Origin: Nitrospiraceae bacterium
GTDB lineage: Bacteria; Nitrospirota; Nitrospiria; Nitrospirales; UBA2166
Length of the DNA: 40,861 nt
Assembly: GCA_002726235.1 (NCBI GenBank)
Contig: PBSN01000001.1
Location: forward strand, 17,266-58,126
Reading direction: 5' to 3'
In this document: one piece after another, positions 2,329 to 11,514 of the stretch
Layout: each line of letters opens with the position of its first letter
How positions within the stretch are numbered: the first letter of the stretch is position 1
Notes under the pieces: generated by a model
Told to the model about the DNA's origin: nothing
Database searches by the model: none
What the model saw: only the letters and a program-made list of their open reading frames with translations
Translations under genes and position numbers: made by a program

Positions 2329-4713
2329 ATGAAACGTCGAGCGTATATTTTTGGTGCGGGAGTCAGTGGTCTCGTGTCCGGCTGGAAGCTTCTTGAGCGT
2401 GGATGGGATGTGACGATTCTTGAGAAGGAACAGTTTCACGGAGGGATGTCTCGCACATGGCGATGGACTGACTTTCTAATTGATGTCGGGCCTCACATCT
2501 ATCATACGCCCGATAAGATGCTCACAGAGTTCTGGGAGCGCGAATTCGGCGACTTGTTTATCACGCGAGATTTTTGGTGCAAGAACGTGAAGGGGCCAAA
2601 CTTTGATCAATACTATGATTACCCATTGTCGTATGAATCATTTGCCCAATACCCTCAAGACCTCAAACGGAAAATCTTTTCCGAACTAGAGCATCTCAAT
2701 CCTGACGAAAAAGCCAAGGCTCATAACTATAAAGAGTATGTGTCGGCCCTCGTGGGCCCAACCGTGCAGGACATGTTCTTCCAGAATTACCCGCAAAAAT
2801 TGTGGGGGATCAGTACGGAAGAGATGACTGCAAGTTGGGCACCGAAGCGTATTGAACTTCGAAAAAGTGTCACGCCGTTTTATCACGGACAATGGAATGC
2901 GGTCGGACGGTATGGGACGGGATGTGTGTACGATCGTATCTATGAAAAGATTGTGAAGCTAGGTGGAAACGTCATGCTAGGTCATGGAATTCAGGGCTTA
3001 GAACATCGCCACAACGTGTTGACAGCGTTGCAACTTGAAAATGATCAATCAATAATCTTAGAGCCAGATGACATTGTCATCTCCACGATGCCAATTAGTT
3101 TCTTGTGTCGCTTGTTAGGTCTTCAAAGCACCCTCGCATTTAGAGGCGTCACGTCAGTGTACCTTGCATTTGATCAAGAGTACGTGCTCCCTGATGGCTT
3201 GGATTGGCTTTATTTTGATTCCCCTGAACTATGGTTTCACCGGCTGAGTGAACAGAAGAAATTTTCTGTTGACTGTGCCGTCCCAGGGAAAACCTGTGTA
3301 ACGGCTGAAATCGCCTACTCTCGAAACGATGCGATCGACAACCTCGGACCAGAGCGGCTAATTGAAGGTGTGCTTGATCAAGTGTGCAGGACGGGATTAG
3401 CGCAACGGCATGATTTTATTGATGGAACGGTGCATCGCCAACCAGCGGTCTACCCTCTACTGCATAAAGACTACCAGCATGAACTCGCGAAGGTCCAAAG
3501 CCATTTGGGATTGTTTAAGCAACTGTACTCACTAGGAACCACGGGCGAATTCAATTACGCAGATAGCCAGATCTTGTTTCTGAAAGCCTTTGATCTCGTG
3601 GATATTCTTACCGATCAGCATTCTGAATTCTCTCAGGTAAAACGAAAACAATCGACTGCCGTTCTTAATACAACCGTCTCGCTTAACGGAAGACTCATTG
3701 GAGAAGGGCATCGTCCAATGATCATTGCGGAAGCGGGATTGAACCACAACGGAAACTTGGAGTTGGCAAGACAGTTGATTGATCAGGCCGCCGACACAGG
3801 TTGTGATGCCATCAAATTTCAAACGTATCAGAGCACAAGCCGAGTCTCCAGCAAAATTAAGTCAGTACGGTATGCTGAAACGACGCTCGGAGAACAGGAG
3901 ACGTTGCTCGAAATGTTTCAACGTCTGGAACTAAGCTACAACGACCATGTAAAGTTATTAGATTACGCTCGTCAGCGAGGCATCGAGATGTTCTCGACCC
4001 CCTTTGATACGAGTAGCGTCGACATGCTCGAGTCCCTCGGAGTCACTCTATATAAAGTTGCATCGTTTGACCTCGTCAATGTTCCGCTCCTCAAGTATAT
4101 AGCGTCAACCAAAAAGCCCATGATTGTCTCCACTGGAATGTCCACCCTTGGCCAGATTGAGGAAGCGCTTGAGATAATTCGAGGTGAGGGAAACGGTAAC
4201 GTTATTCTTCTGCATTGCGTTTCATCATACCCTGCGGCTCCCGAGGATATGAATCTGAGAGCAATTGAAACCCTGAAAAAAAGTTTTCGGATTCCCGTTG
4301 GACTTTCTGACCATACGCTTGGAACTATGGTTTCTCAGGTGGCATTATCTATTGGGGCCAACGTCATTGAGCGCCATTTTACACTGGATCGCAGTCTGGA
4401 AGGTCCAGACCACATTCTTTCCTCGGAGCCTGAGGAAATGCGGCATCTAACGCGTTGCTCACATCTTATCAACCATGTTCTTGGAGATGGTGTCAAAAAG
4501 ATCGAAGCCTGCGAGTACGAAACCATCAATGCACAGCGGAAAAGCTTGTACTCTCGCATTGATATTCCTGCAGGCGAAATTGTCACATCGGATGCCGTGA
4601 CGATTAAAGGACCGGGAGGTGGACTGCAACCACGCTATATTGACATCGTGATTGGACGGACCGCGAGACGAGATCTCAAAGCGGACCATCCAATTACCTG
4701 GGAAGATGTGTAG
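2329..4713 (+). CDS. FAD-dependent oxidoreductase / NeuB-type sialic acid synthase fusion
   Basis: A 794-aa two-enzyme fusion. Residues 1-440 form an amine-oxidase/UDP-galactopyranose-mutase-like FAD domain: GxGxxG at 9-14, ribose-binding E32, and GPHIYHTPDKM and YYDYPLSY blocks. Residues from about 461 are an N-acetylneuraminate synthase-type TIM barrel, with EAGLNHNG, DAIKFQTY, FSTPFDT, KVASFDLVN, STGMSTL, LLHCVSSYP, GLSDHT, and ERHFTLD with GPDH. About 735-794 form a SAF (antifreeze-like) domain. NeuB enzymes condense phosphoenolpyruvate with an amino sugar to give a nonulosonic acid. The reading frame is continuous across the junction (about 440-460), so this is not two adjacent genes. 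The ATG at 2329 has no strong ribosome site. The next gene starts 3 nt after its stop, so the two are co-transcribed. Exact product is unknown; the FAD half may act on the same sugar. Confidence 0.9.
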   Translation: MKRRAYIFGAGVSGLVSGWKLLERGWDVTILEKEQFHGGMSRTWRWTDFLIDVGPHIYHTPDKMLTEFWEREFGDLFITRDFWCKNVKGPNFDQYYDYPLSYESFAQYPQDLKRKIFSELEHLNPDEKAKAHNYKEYVSALVGPTVQDMFFQNYPQKLWGISTEEMTASWAPKRIELRKSVTPFYHGQWNAVGRYGTGCVYDRIYEKIVKLGGNVMLGHGIQGLEHRHNVLTALQLENDQSIILEPDDIVISTMPISFLCRLLGLQSTLAFRGVTSVYLAFDQEYVLPDGLDWLYFDSPELWFHRLSEQKKFSVDCAVPGKTCVTAEIAYSRNDAIDNLGPERLIEGVLDQVCRTGLAQRHDFIDGTVHRQPAVYPLLHKDYQHELAKVQSHLGLFKQLYSLGTTGEFNYADSQILFLKAFDLVDILTDQHSEFSQVKRKQSTAVLNTTVSLNGRLIGEGHRPMIIAEAGLNHNGNLELARQLIDQAADTGCDAIKFQTYQSTSRVSSKIKSVRYAETTLGEQETLLEMFQRLELSYNDHVKLLDYARQRGIEMFSTPFDTSSVDMLESLGVTLYKVASFDLVNVPLLKYIASTKKPMIVSTGMSTLGQIEEALEIIRGEGNGNVILLHCVSSYPAAPEDMNLRAIETLKKSFRIPVGLSDHTLGTMVSQVALSIGANVIERHFTLDRSLEGPDHILSSEPEEMRHLTRCSHLINHVLGDGVKKIEACEYETINAQRKSLYSRIDIPAGEIVTSDAVTIKGPGGGLQPRYIDIVIGRTARRDLKADHPITWEDV

Positions 4714-4716
4714 GAT

Positions 4717-5808
4717 ATGTCGTATCGTGAACAAACAGAAAATATATTGAAGCAAGTGATAGCAATTGCGAAAAAGGAAGGTAAGCTGACGGGATTTTGT
4801 ATTGGGAACACTACAAAGGTAGATACACATGGATTGTTTTTCTCTCCAATACGAAATACTAAACAACTAGTTGCCGGTAGCGTGATTGTGTACGAAGCAC
4901 ACCATTCTGAAGAAATCGCACGCATTGTGGATGGACGGGTCCAGTACATTCTTGTTGACACAGAAAAAAAAGTTGGCCCAGACCCAAAAACGTCCTATGG
5001 GATCGGGGATATGGGAAATATCGAAGGTGCCGTGCGCGATGCGATACAACATTCGACCCTGTTGACATACAAAGGAAATGACCTGACAGTCAATTCCATC
5101 GACTGCGCATTGAGCCAACTTATGACTTCCCCAATACAGAGCATGGGTGGCAAAAAGGTGACCATCATCGGAGCCGGAAACTTGGGAGCAAAGTTAGCGC
5201 TTAAACTGGTCGAACGTGGCGCGCACGTGGTGATTACGCGCCGAAACAAGAAGAAGTTGGAGGTCATTGTCCAAGCGTTAAACTATATCAAACCGGGAAA
5301 TACGGTGGCAGTTGTCGAAGGAATGACTGACAATGAATTAGCTGCAAGAGACGCGCACCTCCTCATCGGCATGGCGGTCGGACCACCAGTAATCACCGAA
5401 ACAATGGTCAGTAGCCTAGCAAAGAACGCGATCATCATGGACGGGGGAAAAGGCTGTCTGCATCCACTAGCAGTACAGCGTGCTCAACAACGTCAATTGA
5501 AAATTTTTCGTGTTGACATTCGCTCTGGGTTTGAGGGAGAAGTTGCAATGTTGCTAGAAATGCACCAGTTGCTCAAACATACCGTGGGTCGACGCCAATT
5601 CGACGGGATTCCCGTTGTATCGGGTGGTCTATTCGCCTGGAAAGATGAGATTGTCGTCGACAATATTCACCACCCCACTGCAATATTTGGCATCGCGGAC
5701 GGCCAAGGAGATTTTATGCGGCAACTATCGCAGGAACAGTCAAGGAATCTCGAACGACTCGATGAGTTAATCGCCAATGAGTCATTCGTGAAATGCCACG
5801 ACATTTAG
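4717..5808 (+). CDS. NAD(P)-binding Rossmann-fold dehydrogenase-like protein
   Basis: A 363-aa protein. The middle carries a Rossmann nucleotide-binding motif (IIGAGNLGAKLA, GxGxxG at 152-157) followed by a basic pair (TRR) that would favour NADP. The arrangement, with a ~140-residue catalytic-looking N-terminal part (IGNTTKVDTHG, YGIGDMGN) and a C-terminal part returning to it (IMDGGKGCLHP, VVSGGLF), recalls shikimate-dehydrogenase or ornithine-cyclodeaminase-like folds, but I cannot name the family. It starts 3 nt after the FAD-NeuB fusion, which implies translational coupling and a shared pathway, plausibly making or processing the amino-sugar substrate. That role is inference from position only. 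Confidence 0.8.
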   Translation: MSYREQTENILKQVIAIAKKEGKLTGFCIGNTTKVDTHGLFFSPIRNTKQLVAGSVIVYEAHHSEEIARIVDGRVQYILVDTEKKVGPDPKTSYGIGDMGNIEGAVRDAIQHSTLLTYKGNDLTVNSIDCALSQLMTSPIQSMGGKKVTIIGAGNLGAKLALKLVERGAHVVITRRNKKKLEVIVQALNYIKPGNTVAVVEGMTDNELAARDAHLLIGMAVGPPVITETMVSSLAKNAIIMDGGKGCLHPLAVQRAQQRQLKIFRVDIRSGFEGEVAMLLEMHQLLKHTVGRRQFDGIPVVSGGLFAWKDEIVVDNIHHPTAIFGIADGQGDFMRQLSQEQSRNLERLDELIANESFVKCHDI

Positions 5809-5932
5809 CAAACTTTCTCACAAGAGAAGTCTAAACAATCAAACGAAAATCTACTTCATGCCGCATAAACTGCTACGGGTTCCGCTTAAAGTCTCAGAGT
5901 CGTTTACTGGCAGTGAGTCGCATGATGAAATG

Positions 5933-6526
5933 TTAGTGATTCGATATACAGTCGTGGGAGAACCGTTTCGCTTCCGCGAGTTGTTCTGGTGACATCCGGT
6001 TTTTGACACGATCACGATTCTTGATTGCAAGATTCCTGACTTCGCTGTCAGTCAAAGTCGTCGCGGCGAGGCTAAAGCACTTATGCGCTAGCACATAGTC
6101 TCGTGGTACCCCTTGCCCGTTGGCGTACATCACGCCAAGATTGTATTGGGCCAACACATAGCCAGCTTCCGCAGCTTGACGGTACCAGTACACCGCTGCC
6201 TTAACATCTTGCAGCACTCCTCTTCCCTCCTCGTACATCAGGCCAAGATTTACTTGGGCCAACGCATAGCCGGCCTTAGCGGCTTGGTGATACCAGCGCA
6301 CCGCTACTTCAACGTCTTGCGGCACCCCATTTCCATCCTCGTACATCAATCCAAGATTGAATTGAGCCTTCGTATCGCCAGTCTCCGCAGCTTGCCTGAA
6401 CTTCTGGATAGCCATTACATAGTCCGTACGGTTATACGCATCCACACCATCGTCATAGTTACCAGCCAGTACAATCTGGCTAACACTAAATACCAAAAGC
6501 AGGGAGAACACGACGGGTGTCATCAT
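5933..6526 (-). CDS. Sel1-repeat (TPR-like) exported protein
   Basis: A 197-aa protein with an N-terminal signal peptide (MMTPVVFSLLLVFSVSQIVLA) and then about three Sel1 repeats: A-x-FNLG-x-MYEDGNGV-PQD, QVNLGLMYEEGRGV, QYNLGVMYANGQGV, each followed by a WY-x-QAAxAG half. The C-terminus (SPEQLAEAKRF) matches the tails of the other two Sel1 proteins in the window. Sel1 proteins are secreted or periplasmic protein-interaction scaffolds; no catalytic residues. No shared promoter element is visible upstream, unlike its neighbours. The start codon has no strong ribosome site. Confidence 0.85.
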   Translation of the reverse strand: MMTPVVFSLLLVFSVSQIVLAGNYDDGVDAYNRTDYVMAIQKFRQAAETGDTKAQFNLGLMYEDGNGVPQDVEVAVRWYHQAAKAGYALAQVNLGLMYEEGRGVLQDVKAAVYWYRQAAEAGYVLAQYNLGVMYANGQGVPRDYVLAHKCFSLAATTLTDSEVRNLAIKNRDRVKNRMSPEQLAEAKRFSHDCISNH

Positions 6527-7060
6527 GCCAACAAGTGGAGAGAAGTATCAGAACAGTATGTTTTGTTCCATTTTGGTGGACATTGCACATCACCACATGA
6601 ACAAAAAACGCAATAGTTGTCAGCTTTTGGATTGAGCATTCTCTTGCAACCCGTGCACACATAGAAGATCTAGCAGAGGCGGTGTGAGCATCATTTCTGT
6701 CGTAATCAATTTGCACAGCGGGCAGCATATCGGTAATATGCCTTCGCCTGCTAAATCTATTGGCGCACCCTACAATAAATCCTCACCGTCGAGATTGGCT
6801 TACCAAGTCCAACGCTGGAAGCATCGGGAGATTGTATCCTCTAGACTGAGGACACTTGACTCACCGCTGTGCCATTTCCAATCAAGGATAAATAGAAAAC
6901 CCAAGAACTTGCAGTTGCTTTTTCACTCTCGCAACGGTGAGGTATAGCAACAAAAAAAATATATAAACATTAACAAATTACCCAACAACAACCACGGAAC
7001 TACCGGATGCATTAACCAACCCTACACAAAACTATAATTTCAAACCTTAGAGGGTCGAAC
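6527..7060. other. intergenic region, no supported gene
   Basis: 534 nt between two minus-strand genes. Short open frames exist on both strands, but none has a ribosome site or a recognisable protein. The stretch near 6945-7030 is A+T-rich (poly-A tract around 6950). I see no transposase relic or clear terminator. Confidence 0.5.
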
Positions 7061-7447
7061 TCATGGCGTGATGGCTACCCCATTAGGACCATCCCCAACA
7101 GGAATCGTGGCGACGACCGTATTCGTGGTCACATCAATCACTGAGACAGTATTAGAAAGCCAGTTCGTCACATAAGCGCGAGTCCCATCCGGCGTAATGG
7201 CGACTCCGTTGGGAGCATCCTCAACCGGAATCGTGGCAATGACCGTATTCGTGTCTACGTCAATCACTGAGACGGTGCCGGAGGAATTGTTTGTCACATA
7301 GGCACGCGTTGATGACTTGACCGACTGCGAGACTGTGGGCTGCTGAAGGGATACGGGTTCAACATTTTTATCCCCTTCGCACGAAACGGCAACGAACGAA
7401 AATACTAAGATAACAACAATTCTTGTAAGTTGGATACATCTCATCAT
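7061..7447 (-). CDS. two-blade YVTN beta-propeller lipoprotein, probably truncated
   Basis: A 128-aa lipoprotein: signal peptide, then lipobox VAVSC (Cys about residue 23). A linker is followed by two ~42-residue YVTN blades (AYVTNNSSGTVSVIDVDTNT and AYVTNWLSNTVSVIDVTTNT), each continuing ATIPV-x-PNGVAITP. The two blades are also similar as DNA (about 126-nt unit). YVTN proteins normally need about seven blades for a closed propeller. This one stops immediately after the second VAITP, exactly where the next blade (DGTRAYVTN) should begin, so it is probably a 3'-truncated remnant or a repeat-contracted allele. It has its own promoter of the shared family at 7482-7510. Confidence 0.75.
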   Translation of the reverse strand: MMRCIQLTRIVVILVFSFVAVSCEGDKNVEPVSLQQPTVSQSVKSSTRAYVTNNSSGTVSVIDVDTNTVIATIPVEDAPNGVAITPDGTRAYVTNWLSNTVSVIDVTTNTVVATIPVGDGPNGVAITP

Positions 7448-7481
7448 GGGATGTTATTCATTTTTTCACCATAGCGGAAGA

Positions 7482-7533
7482 AGTGTACGCCTCACAGGAA
7501 CACAATTCAATATCCACCGTCGGGAGGGAATGG
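7482..7533 (-). promoter_or_regulatory. shared promoter element, copy A
   Basis: On the minus strand: -35 TTGAAT (7510-7505), 17-nt spacer, -10 TACACT (7487-7482), with an upstream box CCATTCCCT (7533-7525) 14 nt above the -35. The predicted start near 7475 gives a ~28-nt leader for the YVTN lipoprotein. Same architecture as copies B, C and D. Confidence 0.65.
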
Positions 7534-7674
7534 CTTTGCGGAGAAGTATCATTTTTGCCCATGCCATTTTCATCTCGGTTGAAGGCCTTGAGTTTGGGTG
7601 ATATTAAGATACGGATTCTTTGAGCATGCAATAGAACGACACCGCCTCACGAGTGGAGCTATTCTAAATTGAAC

Positions 7675-8899
7675 CTATCCCACCACCTCAGACAAAGGTC
7701 TGCGCATTGCTTGCGAACGTGCTTCTTCTGCACGGGATATGGCTACCGCTGACATTGGAGTGTTATAGGATGCTTTGGTCAGATCAAACCCAAGCACGCA
7801 ATAGAGTTCATCCAAATTGGCCTCATCTAAATCGCGAGCGAGTACCCACTTGTGATTCTCTACTGGCAAGCAGTAACCGGACTGCTGGAGGTCTCGCATA
7901 ATTTCAAAAACAGTAGCTACGCCAAGTTCGCGTTCGAGGACGTCATCACTCAATCCACCGCCTTTCTGATGTTGGCTCTTAAGCAAATGGAGAACATGCA
8001 ACACCGCCGCCATCCTTTCGGCTGGTGTCATGGGATGTTCTGAGACGTAGCTGGAATATTTCCAGTCCTCAAGAGCAGAAGTCAGCAATGCCCCAAGAAG
8101 GACGACGACCCAAACCAAAAACATCCAGATCAGAAAAATAGGAATAGCCGCGAGCACACCATAGATGACATGGTAGGAAGAAAAAATTAAAATAACCCCC
8201 CCCACAAATAGTTTCTTAAGAATCGCAAATAGAACCCCGGCCAAGATGCCCCCGGTCACTCCACTTTGCCAATGAACAGTGCGGTTGGGAACAGCACTGT
8301 AAAAGATGGTCAACTCAATCACCATGATCAGATTTGGAACAACCTCATGGACTAGTGAAGATCCAAGAGAATTACTGAACTGAGCGACATCAAACCAAGC
8401 GGACAACGCGTAAAGATACGTGGACAACGACAAACTGATTCCAATAAGCAACGGGCTCAGAGTTAACAAAGCCCAGAACATGAGCACCCGAAAAGCCAGT
8501 GGGCGCTGGATGCGTACGCGAAAAATTCGATTCAGCGCACTTTCAATGGTGGCAAGCAGAATGATGGCCGTCACTCCCAGTCCAATAATTCCCATTGTTG
8601 TCAGCTTGCCTGTTTGTTGAGTGAAGTTGTGCAGATAGCGAGACACAACATCGCCTGCAGCAGGCACAAAGTTCTGAAAGACGTAGTACTGAACCTGTTG
8701 CTGAATCCCGTCAAAGGCAGGAAAAGCTGAAAAAAATGGCAAAACTGATAGCGAGCAGAGGTACCAGCGATAACAAAGTGGTGTAGCTCAACGATGCCGC
8801 AATGCGCAAACACTGATCATCATGAAACCGGTACAGAATAGAGCCTGAGAGTTCCTTGAGATCGCCTACATGAAAATTGCGTGGGCTCGACGTAGCCAT
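7675..8899 (-). CDS. YihY/BrkB-family inner-membrane protein, interrupted by a frameshift
   Basis: Polytopic membrane protein of the YihY/virulence-factor-BrkB family, about 408 aa if restored. The N-terminal part (8899 to about 8730) reads MATSSPRNFHVGD...LLSLVPLLAISFAIF and then runs into a stop. The remainder continues in another frame as SAFPAFDGIQQQ...NFVPAAGDVV and carries the ATIESALNRIFRV segment, several helices and a soluble tail. The break is a run of seven T on the coding strand (plus-strand A at 8730-8736); six T would restore the family sequence exactly. This could be a real disruption, a phase-variable tract or a sequencing error. ATG 8742 could start the downstream fragment, but that would lack the first helix. 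Promoter copy B lies ~220 nt upstream. Confidence 0.85.
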
Positions 8900-9266: not shown

Positions 9267-9830
9267 TTAGCGAGTTGGTGTCCACTCGCGGGCCAACCGG
9301 TTTGCTTCCGCAATCTCCTGTTGCGACATCTTTTGTGCGAGTTCATCACGGCGTTCGATGACTCGATCTCGTGTTTCTTGGATAGACACATCCGCTACAG
9401 CAAGGGTATACCACTTATACGCTTGGATGGCATCTGGCAATACCCCTCGCCCCAATTCATACATCTTGCCAAGATTAACCTGAGCAATCGCATAGCTACC
9501 CTCTGCGGATTTCGTATACCAGTTCAACGCTTCCTGATTATTCTGCGGCACACCCTTTCCGTAATAGTACATCCAGCCAATCCAGTTATGGGCCTTGGCA
9601 TGGCCAGACTCTGCAGCCTTCATGAACTGCTCTAAGGCAGTTGCATAGTCCTTCTGATTAAACGCATCCTTTCCATCGTGATAGAAGTCGTCGCCTTGGG
9701 GTACTTCAGCTGAGGTAGAGGAGGAGACTACTGCGGGAAGCGGATCGACAGAGTCCGCGGTCTTCTTGGGTTCACATCCGATACTGGACACAATGAGAAT
9801 GACGAGAAGAGGCATCGTGATCAAAGGCAT
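9267..9830 (-). CDS. Sel1-repeat lipoprotein
   Basis: A 187-aa protein from ATG 9830, chosen because GGAG sits 8 nt upstream and the product begins directly with a lipoprotein signal (MPLITMPLLVILIVSSIGC, Cys 19). The longer frame to 9905 would bury the signal behind 25 residues. After a linker come about two to three Sel1/TPR-like repeats (AHNWIGWMYYYGKGVPQN, AQVNLGKMYELGRGVLPD), and then a C-terminal MSQQEIAEANRLAREW helix shared with the neighbouring Sel1 proteins. Expected to be membrane-anchored and scaffold-like. Promoter copy C lies upstream with a leader of about 148 nt. Confidence 0.85.
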   Translation of the reverse strand: MPLITMPLLVILIVSSIGCEPKKTADSVDPLPAVVSSSTSAEVPQGDDFYHDGKDAFNQKDYATALEQFMKAAESGHAKAHNWIGWMYYYGKGVPQNNQEALNWYTKSAEGSYAIAQVNLGKMYELGRGVLPDAIQAYKWYTLAVADVSIQETRDRVIERRDELAQKMSQQEIAEANRLAREWTPTR

Positions 9831-10133
9831 ACAGTTTTCTCCAACCAGAACTTTAGATTGATAGTCACTTATCGCCAGAAGACTGTGCGGAACAATCTTC
9901 ACCACATTACACCTTTCTTAATCAAGCAGGTTGAAGGAGGTGTCATTGTAACTCAGAATTCACTCACATTATCATCACTGAATAAGTGTACGTCTGCCAA
10001 AAACACGACTCAAGCTTCACCTCATGTAGGGAATGGAGAGAGGAAGAACGATGCGTTATGACTAATGACGGTGTTTTGCTTCAGATGCGAGAAACTACTA
10101 ACAAGCAAGCCCCCACGTGACCAAATCATGAAC
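9831..10133. other. leader and promoter region, no supported gene
   Basis: About 300 nt upstream of the Sel1 lipoprotein, holding promoter copy C (9985-10036). The segment 10030-10065 resembles that above copy B. Nothing else recognisable. Confidence 0.5.
9985..10036 (-). promoter_or_regulatory. shared promoter element, copy C
   Basis: Minus strand: -35 TTGAGT (10013-10008), 17-nt spacer, -10 TACACT (9990-9985), upstream box CCATTCCCT ending 14 nt above the -35. Same length as copy A and about 70% identical to it over 51 nt. Drives the Sel1 lipoprotein. Confidence 0.65.
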
Positions 10134-10743: not shown

Positions 10744-11457
10744 CTAGCGAATCGGCATCCGCTCGCGGATGAACTTTTCAGCCTCAGCGATTTGGTGAGG
10801 GGTCATAAACGCGACAATCGCATCACGTTTCCTAACTTCATTCCCTCCATCTCCAGAAGCCGCGAGAGTGGCCCACACATAAGCGAGCACGTAATCCATG
10901 GGAACGCCTTTCCCAAAATAATACATTGAGGCAAGATTGTATTGGGCTCCCCGATCACCAGCTTCAGCGGCTTTCCGATACCACCTCACCGCTCGCTGAT
11001 CGTCCTGCATCACACCTTTCCCATGAGCATACATCACGCCAAGGGCGGTCTGAGCACCCGTATCGCCAGCCTCAGCGGCTTTCGTGTACCAGTACATTGC
11101 TTGCGCATAATCCTGTGGTCCACCCCTCCCCTCGACGCACATTGAGGCAAGATTGTATTGAGCCTCCATGTAACCATCTTCAGCAGCTTCTATGTACCAG
11201 TGCATCGCCTGCTCATGGTCTTGCGACACACGTTCTCCAAACCGGTACAGTGATCCAAAAATAGATTGTGGCCGTAGATTGCCGGTCTTGTCCGACTCCA
11301 TCAACTTCGTAAAAGTCGCCGCATAGTCATCCTTAAGATAAGAAATCAAGGCATCTTCACCGTCTCCAGCCACCGCAACGCCAGTCCCACCGACCAGAAA
11401 TACCAGTGCGAACACTATGGACTTCACCACACCTCCAATTGAAAATTGATAGATCAT
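10744..11457 (-). CDS. Sel1-repeat exported protein
   Basis: About 237 aa from ATG 11457; the frame is open to 11499 but the extra residues precede the signal peptide. Signal peptide around SIVFALVFLVGGTGVAVA, then four Sel1 repeats (SIFGSLYRFGERV, YNLASMCVEGRGG, TALGVMYAHGKGV, YNLASMYYFGKGV), each with a WY-x-AAEAGD half. The C-terminus is TPHQIAEAEKFIRERMP. A GTG with GGAGG just upstream, inside the signal region, is an alternative start. It lies 91 nt downstream of the holin-like gene and has no promoter element of its own, so it is probably transcribed with it from copy D. Confidence 0.85.
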   Translation of the reverse strand: MIYQFSIGGVVKSIVFALVFLVGGTGVAVAGDGEDALISYLKDDYAATFTKLMESDKTGNLRPQSIFGSLYRFGERVSQDHEQAMHWYIEAAEDGYMEAQYNLASMCVEGRGGPQDYAQAMYWYTKAAEAGDTGAQTALGVMYAHGKGVMQDDQRAVRWYRKAAEAGDRGAQYNLASMYYFGKGVPMDYVLAYVWATLAASGDGGNEVRKRDAIVAFMTPHQIAEAEKFIRERMPIR

Positions 11458-11514
11458 ACGCGAGTCCGAGCCTCGTTCAGTTCCATGAACATGCACCACC
11501 GTGAAATTGGTGCG

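Follow-up and report, generated by a model that had tools for sequence, protein, structure and literature searches.

Synthases of the NeuB family act on an open-chain aldose, and the known NeuB pathways need an enzyme, i.e., NeuC, LegG, or PseG, that frees the sugar from UDP. To our knowledge, sugar release and condensation are carried out by separate enzymes in the known nonulosonic acid (NulO) pathways. In UDP-galactopyranose mutase (UGM), the sugar becomes covalently attached to flavin N5, and the adduct then opens to an iminium (PMC7662398). In NmNeuB, the synthase of Neisseria meningitidis, Arg314 contacts ManNAc at its N-acetyl group and has an important role in catalysis (PMC6795526). 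Here we analyze a gene from a Nitrospiraceae bacterium (assembly GCA_002726235.1) in which a UGM-like flavin domain and a NeuB-type synthase form a single polypeptide. The product belongs to the NeuB family of synthases but carries a new fused domain and has an altered acceptor site, and no description of the FAD-NeuB architecture was found in the searchable open-licence literature. In the reading that we favor, to which we give a probability of roughly one in three, the flavin half would release an open-chain sugar from an NDP-sugar, for condensation with PEP by the NeuB half. Coordinates below refer to the window, i.e., the whole 40,861-nucleotide stretch of DNA analyzed, unless a locus is named. 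The features are as follows.

2329-4713 (+): fusion gene, UGM-like FAD domain plus NeuB barrel plus SAF domain, 794 aa (ORF, Pfam, homologues)
2329-3618 (+): FAD half, residues 1-430, UGM superfamily (Pfam, Foldseek, profile search against solved structures)
2494-2496 (+): His56, first His of the GPHIxHT motif (GPHIFHT here), matching the conserved His of UGM in the alignment; invariant in the fused set
2803-2805 (+): Trp159, equivalent to KpUGM Trp160 (HMMER alignment); invariant in the fused set
2848-2850 (+): Arg174, equivalent to KpUGM Arg174 (HMMER alignment); invariant in the fused set
3241-3243 (+): Arg305, equivalent to KpUGM Arg280 (HMMER alignment); invariant in the fused set
3619-3693 (+): linker joining the halves, residues 431-455 (low pLDDT at 431-444, domain limits)
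3694-4503 (+): NeuB barrel, residues 456-725, catalytic residues kept (Pfam, residue comparison)
4537-4710 (+): SAF domain, residues 737-794 (Pfam)
4609-4611 (+): Gly761, at the NmNeuB Arg314 position (17 of the 18 fused proteins have Gly here, the other one Ser)
4717-5808 (+): partner gene, encoding a two-domain Rossmann NAD(P) dehydrogenase of 363 aa (Pfam, fold search, conserved neighbor)

The fusion ORF runs from ATG to TAG with no internal stops. Pfam places NAD_binding_8 at residues 7 to 70, Amino_oxidase at 12 to 355 (1.2e-14), NeuB at 483 to 723 (2.7e-91; 305.7 bits against a cutoff of 22.1), and SAF at 739 to 794 (3.7e-10; 40.6 bits against a cutoff of 21), so that the second half has the barrel-then-SAF layout of the NeuB-family NulO synthases in the broad sense. 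An earlier note on this DNA had described one continuous frame holding an FAD domain and a complete NeuB barrel plus SAF domain, and the ORF and Pfam results confirm this. The domain border, which it put near residue 440, also proved right, the AlphaFold model having a low-confidence linker at residues 431 to 444.

When genome contigs were scanned with the full-length protein, 14 loci were obtained, and in 12 of these a single unbroken frame spans the query completely or nearly so. The homologues include an intact one in a congener, Nitrospiraceae UBA2166 (90% identity), one in a groundwater deltaproteobacterium (71%), and others in SAR11/Pelagibacteraceae and one Kaiserbacterium (45 to 48%). 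The remaining two loci are L040, cut by the contig start, and L038, where the gene is split within the FAD half (L038:5354-5827 and 5856-7748) in a single-cell assembly, probably by a frameshift error. Genome searches added Nitrospirota G207 and G292 and the SAR11-order genomes G552, G575, and G430. The fused set used hereafter comprises 18 full or nearly full proteins, the window protein included. Beyond the window, the intact fusion thus occurs in the congener and 16 further genomes (Nitrospirota, the deltaproteobacterium, SAR11, and Kaiserbacteria), spanning four phylum-level groups. The architecture is rare, being present in 4 of 395 Nitrospirota genomes, 4 of 197 SAR11-order genomes, and 1 of 297 genomes of the deltaproteobacterium's phylum.

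The draft assembly of the window genome consists of 27 contigs, and the earlier note had allowed for a sequencing error masking a stop near codon 440 to 460. The search for the same architecture that it proposed disposes of a sequencing or assembly error as the source of the fusion, to which we now attach a negligible probability, because 17 other homologues from independent assemblies, complete or nearly complete and all in one clade, carry the same join; a frameshift or assembly artifact was rejected on these grounds. Nor do relatives encode two proteins, the other outcome that would have undone the claim: no separate FAD and NeuB orthologues were found in the 395 Nitrospirota genomes, where orthologues of the FAD half exist only in fused form, since fused copies score 608 to 731 bits and the best stand-alone protein 231 bits.

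The tree unites the fused NeuB halves in a single clade (98/96) that excludes 25 stand-alone NeuBs and also three NeuBs belonging to another fusion. From this we infer that the FAD-NeuB fusion arose once and then spread horizontally. For the pair of congeners, dN/dS is 0.082 for the FAD half, 0.066 for the NeuB half, and 0.10 for the partner gene, and both halves of the fusion are therefore under purifying selection (0.07 to 0.08). No relative was confirmed in viral_contigs, and no plasmid record covers 80% of the query, the best plasmid matches being restricted to the NeuB half. A tRNA-Arg (TCG) gene lies at 2112-2189, 139 bases upstream of the fusion, and is a possible integration site for horizontally acquired DNA.

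The best NCBIfam matches of the FAD half are uncharacterized PRK07208 proteins (1e-49). Profile searches against solved structures rank UDP-galactopyranose mutases first, and Foldseek gives UGM as the best match to the FAD domain, narrowly above protoporphyrinogen oxidases; identity to UGM in the structural alignments is 15 to 18%, and the score for TIGR00031 (UGM) is 34.5 bits against a cutoff of 303.75 in NCBIfam. The half shows the UGM fold and carries the GxGxxG and GG motifs at its predicted FAD site. When its residues were mapped onto UGM through HMMER alignments, the positions of the active-site His, Trp160, Arg174, and Arg280 were invariant in the fused set. By these comparisons, the half is more specifically UGM-like than amine-oxidase-like, which refines the earlier assignment while upholding both domain identities and the retention of their key motifs. 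The FAD half may oxidize or isomerize the sugar, as the earlier note suggested; the kept active-site residues favor UGM-type flavin chemistry on an NDP-sugar, through isomerization or open-chain release, rather than an amine-oxidase-like oxidation. Stand-alone UGM-like paralogues lack the second His of GPHIxHT and mostly keep the Trp/Arg/Arg set, so that these residues back the family placement more than a particular reaction.

Recruitment of idle or regulatory domains is known in other fused enzymes, and the flavin half might likewise be idle or act as a redox sensor, the protein being a NeuB with an added domain. The active-site positions are, however, invariant over distant phyla, and the dN/dS of the FAD half is 0.08, making this an improbable account.

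The catalytic residues of NmNeuB (E25, K53, Q55, K129, H215, E234, and H236) are all kept in 18 of 18 fused proteins, and the half is, as judged from its sequence, a NulO synthase with predicted PEP-dependent condensation activity. It departs from the Neu5Ac synthases in the SAF domain, where Gly761 replaces Arg314. Arg or Lys occupies the position in 21 of 24 stand-alone NeuBs; the arginine is lost in the other three. The scores fall below the NCBIfam cutoffs for both Neu5Ac synthase (TIGR03569, 385.1 against 399.65) and PseI (TIGR03586, 322.5 against 340.25). Where NmNeuB has E134, every fused protein has Asp, as do some stand-alone NeuBs. Loss of the SAF arginine suggests an unusual acceptor, other than ManNAc or related 2-N-acetyl hexosamines.

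The partner gene starts 3 bases past the fusion stop codon. Of 18 informative loci, 15 have the partner dehydrogenase directly on one side or the other of the fusion (a count that omits the truncated loci L036 and L040). Profile searches found the dehydrogenase in 9 of 12 fusion genomes and in none of seven fusion-free relatives; its fold search returned generic two-domain Rossmann dehydrogenases and carbamoyltransferases. A class III aminotransferase (Aminotran_3) gene is present in six loci; other recurrent genes, found in part of the set, are of the SDR, radical-SAM, and methyltransferase types. Ten larger ORFs scanned in the rest of the window included no other NulO pathway genes. Downstream of the module lie three related short-repeat proteins with 35 to 42% mutual identity (5933-6526, 9267-9905, and 10744-11499 [-]), also found in the congener locus L029.

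The conserved dehydrogenase neighbor raises the possibility of redox tailoring, in which it and the FAD half would together oxidize or reduce a carbon of the acceptor sugar or NulO, the resulting ketone then being aminated to an amino-NulO in loci with the class III aminotransferase. The six Aminotran_3 loci and the fold that the FAD domain shares with oxidases such as protoporphyrinogen oxidase are in keeping with such a role. Yet the FAD half is closest to UGM, whose net reaction is non-redox, and keeps its active-site positions; the aminotransferase is missing from most loci, and a search for a close orthologue found none in the window genome, where the best match to that of L032 is 36% and unlinked. 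We regard redox tailoring as doubtful on its own, though nearly as likely as the open-chain release that we favor.

In 12 of 20 loci there are CMP-NulO-synthetase-type genes (CTP_transf_3), either free-standing or fused as NeuB-CTP_transf_3, and the FAD-NeuB fusion very probably belongs to a biosynthetic module for a CMP-activated NulO. The second type of fusion, a divergent NeuB plus a CMP-sugar synthetase domain of 580 to 595 aa in all, was located as follows.

L068:4884-6656 (-): NeuB-CTP_transf_3 fusion, window genome (G000:C7)
L031:11463-13205: NeuB-CTP_transf_3 fusion
L033:7253-8995: NeuB-CTP_transf_3 fusion
L037:11147-12892: NeuB-CTP_transf_3 fusion
L058:11327-13114: NeuB-CTP_transf_3 fusion

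It lies directly 3′ of the partner dehydrogenase in four loci and is unlinked in the window genome; its NeuB is without the His at the NmNeuB H215 position. The window genome's copy is 45% identical to the SAR11 one and sits beside a 641-aa gene; in G207, a homologue is beside a gene 51% identical to that 641-aa gene, all linked to the FAD-NeuB fusion. These adjoining 641- to 643-aa proteins (L068:2929-4854 [-] and L058:13133-15064; 51% identical) have weak GATase_7/Asn_synthase matches in one case and no Pfam match in the other.

With CMP synthetase genes nearby and a UGM fold with its active-site positions, the FAD half could also be a true furanose mutase, acting by ring contraction on an NDP-sugar or on CMP-NulO and fused for coexpression or colocalization only. 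Against this, its score lies far under the UGM cutoff (34.5 against 303.75 bits), CMP-NulO arises only after another enzyme, and we know of no furanose NDP-sugars among NeuB substrates; we consider it unlikely.

The distribution of sugar-releasing enzymes bears on the favored open-chain release. Epimerase_2-type genes, for the hydrolyzing 2-epimerase NeuC/LegG, were found near stand-alone NeuBs in L060, L061, L062, and L066, and in the genomes with both NeuB types (G000, G003, G057, and G059), they adjoin the separate NeuB, never the fusion. No Epimerase_2 match was obtained in fusion genomes G058, G060, and G061, some genomes being incomplete; in G575, one lies about 10 kb from the fusion. 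The only PseG over the cutoff is in G207 and unlinked, and a weaker one in G061 is beside a separate NeuB. Nitrospirota NulO loci also encode other long NeuB-domain proteins (L061:3951-5846, 631 aa, and L062:1783-4692, 969 aa).

We propose that the FAD half would bind an NDP-sugar via the conserved His, Trp, and Arg pair, and that N5 of the reduced FAD would displace the nucleotide and open the ring, as in UGM. The open-chain aldose would then pass to the fused NeuB half, to be condensed there with PEP. In this scheme, the FAD half would take the place of NeuC, LegG, or PseG, the free-standing sugar-releasing enzymes of known pathways, and the sugar would be tailored, either ahead of condensation or afterward, by the dehydrogenase and, in some genomes, a class III aminotransferase. 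Open-chain release is preferred as the most economical account linking a UGM-like domain, a NeuB, and the missing hydrolase. It accords with the conservation of the fusion as one clade across four phylum-level groups, the invariant UGM and NeuB catalytic positions, the loss of Arg314 in only the fused clade and 3 of 24 stand-alone NeuBs, the adjoining dehydrogenase absent from fusion-free genomes, the CMP-synthetase-type genes, the placement of Epimerase_2 beside the separate NeuB, and NeuB's use of an open-chain aldose. It also accords with the N5-iminium sugar adduct of UGM (PMC7662398). On the other side, the Trp/Arg/Arg set mostly kept by the stand-alone paralogues is no proof of nucleotide-sugar release; UGM itself re-forms the NDP-sugar without hydrolysis; an unrelated hydrolase could supply the sugar; the missing epimerases come partly from incomplete genomes, with the G575 gene not far off; and sugar release alone leaves the role of the conserved dehydrogenase unexplained.

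The functional coupling of the halves that the earlier note had suggested is supported by the conservation, single-origin clade, and conserved gene neighbors; substrate channelling between them is plausible. The probable product of the fusion is a sialic-acid-like surface sugar of an unusual kind, made by what would be a shortened route. More tentatively than open-chain release as such, UGM-type covalent flavin chemistry may strip the nucleotide off an NDP-sugar and hand the open-chain aldehyde directly to the synthase, which would be a new catalytic strategy for a chimera of flavoenzyme and aldol synthase, with an undescribed CMP-NulO as its product in SAR11, Nitrospirota, and other groups. 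From the conserved fusion, with its UGM-like domain and changed acceptor pocket, we predict a NulO of new structure; covalent flavin chemistry may also be put to a new use here. The fusion occurs in SAR11, which are among the most abundant ocean bacteria and whose surface sugars matter in recognition by phages and grazers.

Among known systems, pathways with NeuC or LegG and a separate NeuB presumably share the need for a free open-chain aldose, but there the epimerase is a gene of its own beside NeuB, while none stands beside the fusion. The PRK07208-type stand-alone FAD proteins, uncharacterized, are the best NCBIfam matches and about the length of the FAD half; they differ in being unfused, in lacking the second His of GPHIxHT, and in scoring at most 231 against at least 608 bits. 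The UGMs (Klebsiella pneumoniae 1wam, eukaryotic-type 4dsg, and Aspergillus fumigatus 3ute) have the same fold and the His, Trp160, Arg174, and Arg280 positions, whereas the FAD half is only 15 to 18% identical, far below the family cutoff, and fused to NeuB. The NeuB-family NulO synthases NmNeuB (1xuu/4ipi), Campylobacter jejuni PseI (8h2c), and Bacillus subtilis SpsE (1vli) share the TIM barrel plus SAF and the conserved PEP, lysine, and metal residues; the synthase described here differs in its FAD fusion, in the Arg314-to-Gly/Ser and Glu134-to-Asp changes, and in falling below the Neu5Ac and Pse synthase cutoffs. The NeuB-CTP_transferase fusions differ in the other fused domain and in their separate, distant NeuB clade, but resemble the FAD-NeuB fusion in joining NeuB to an enzyme of the NulO pathway, often in the same locus.
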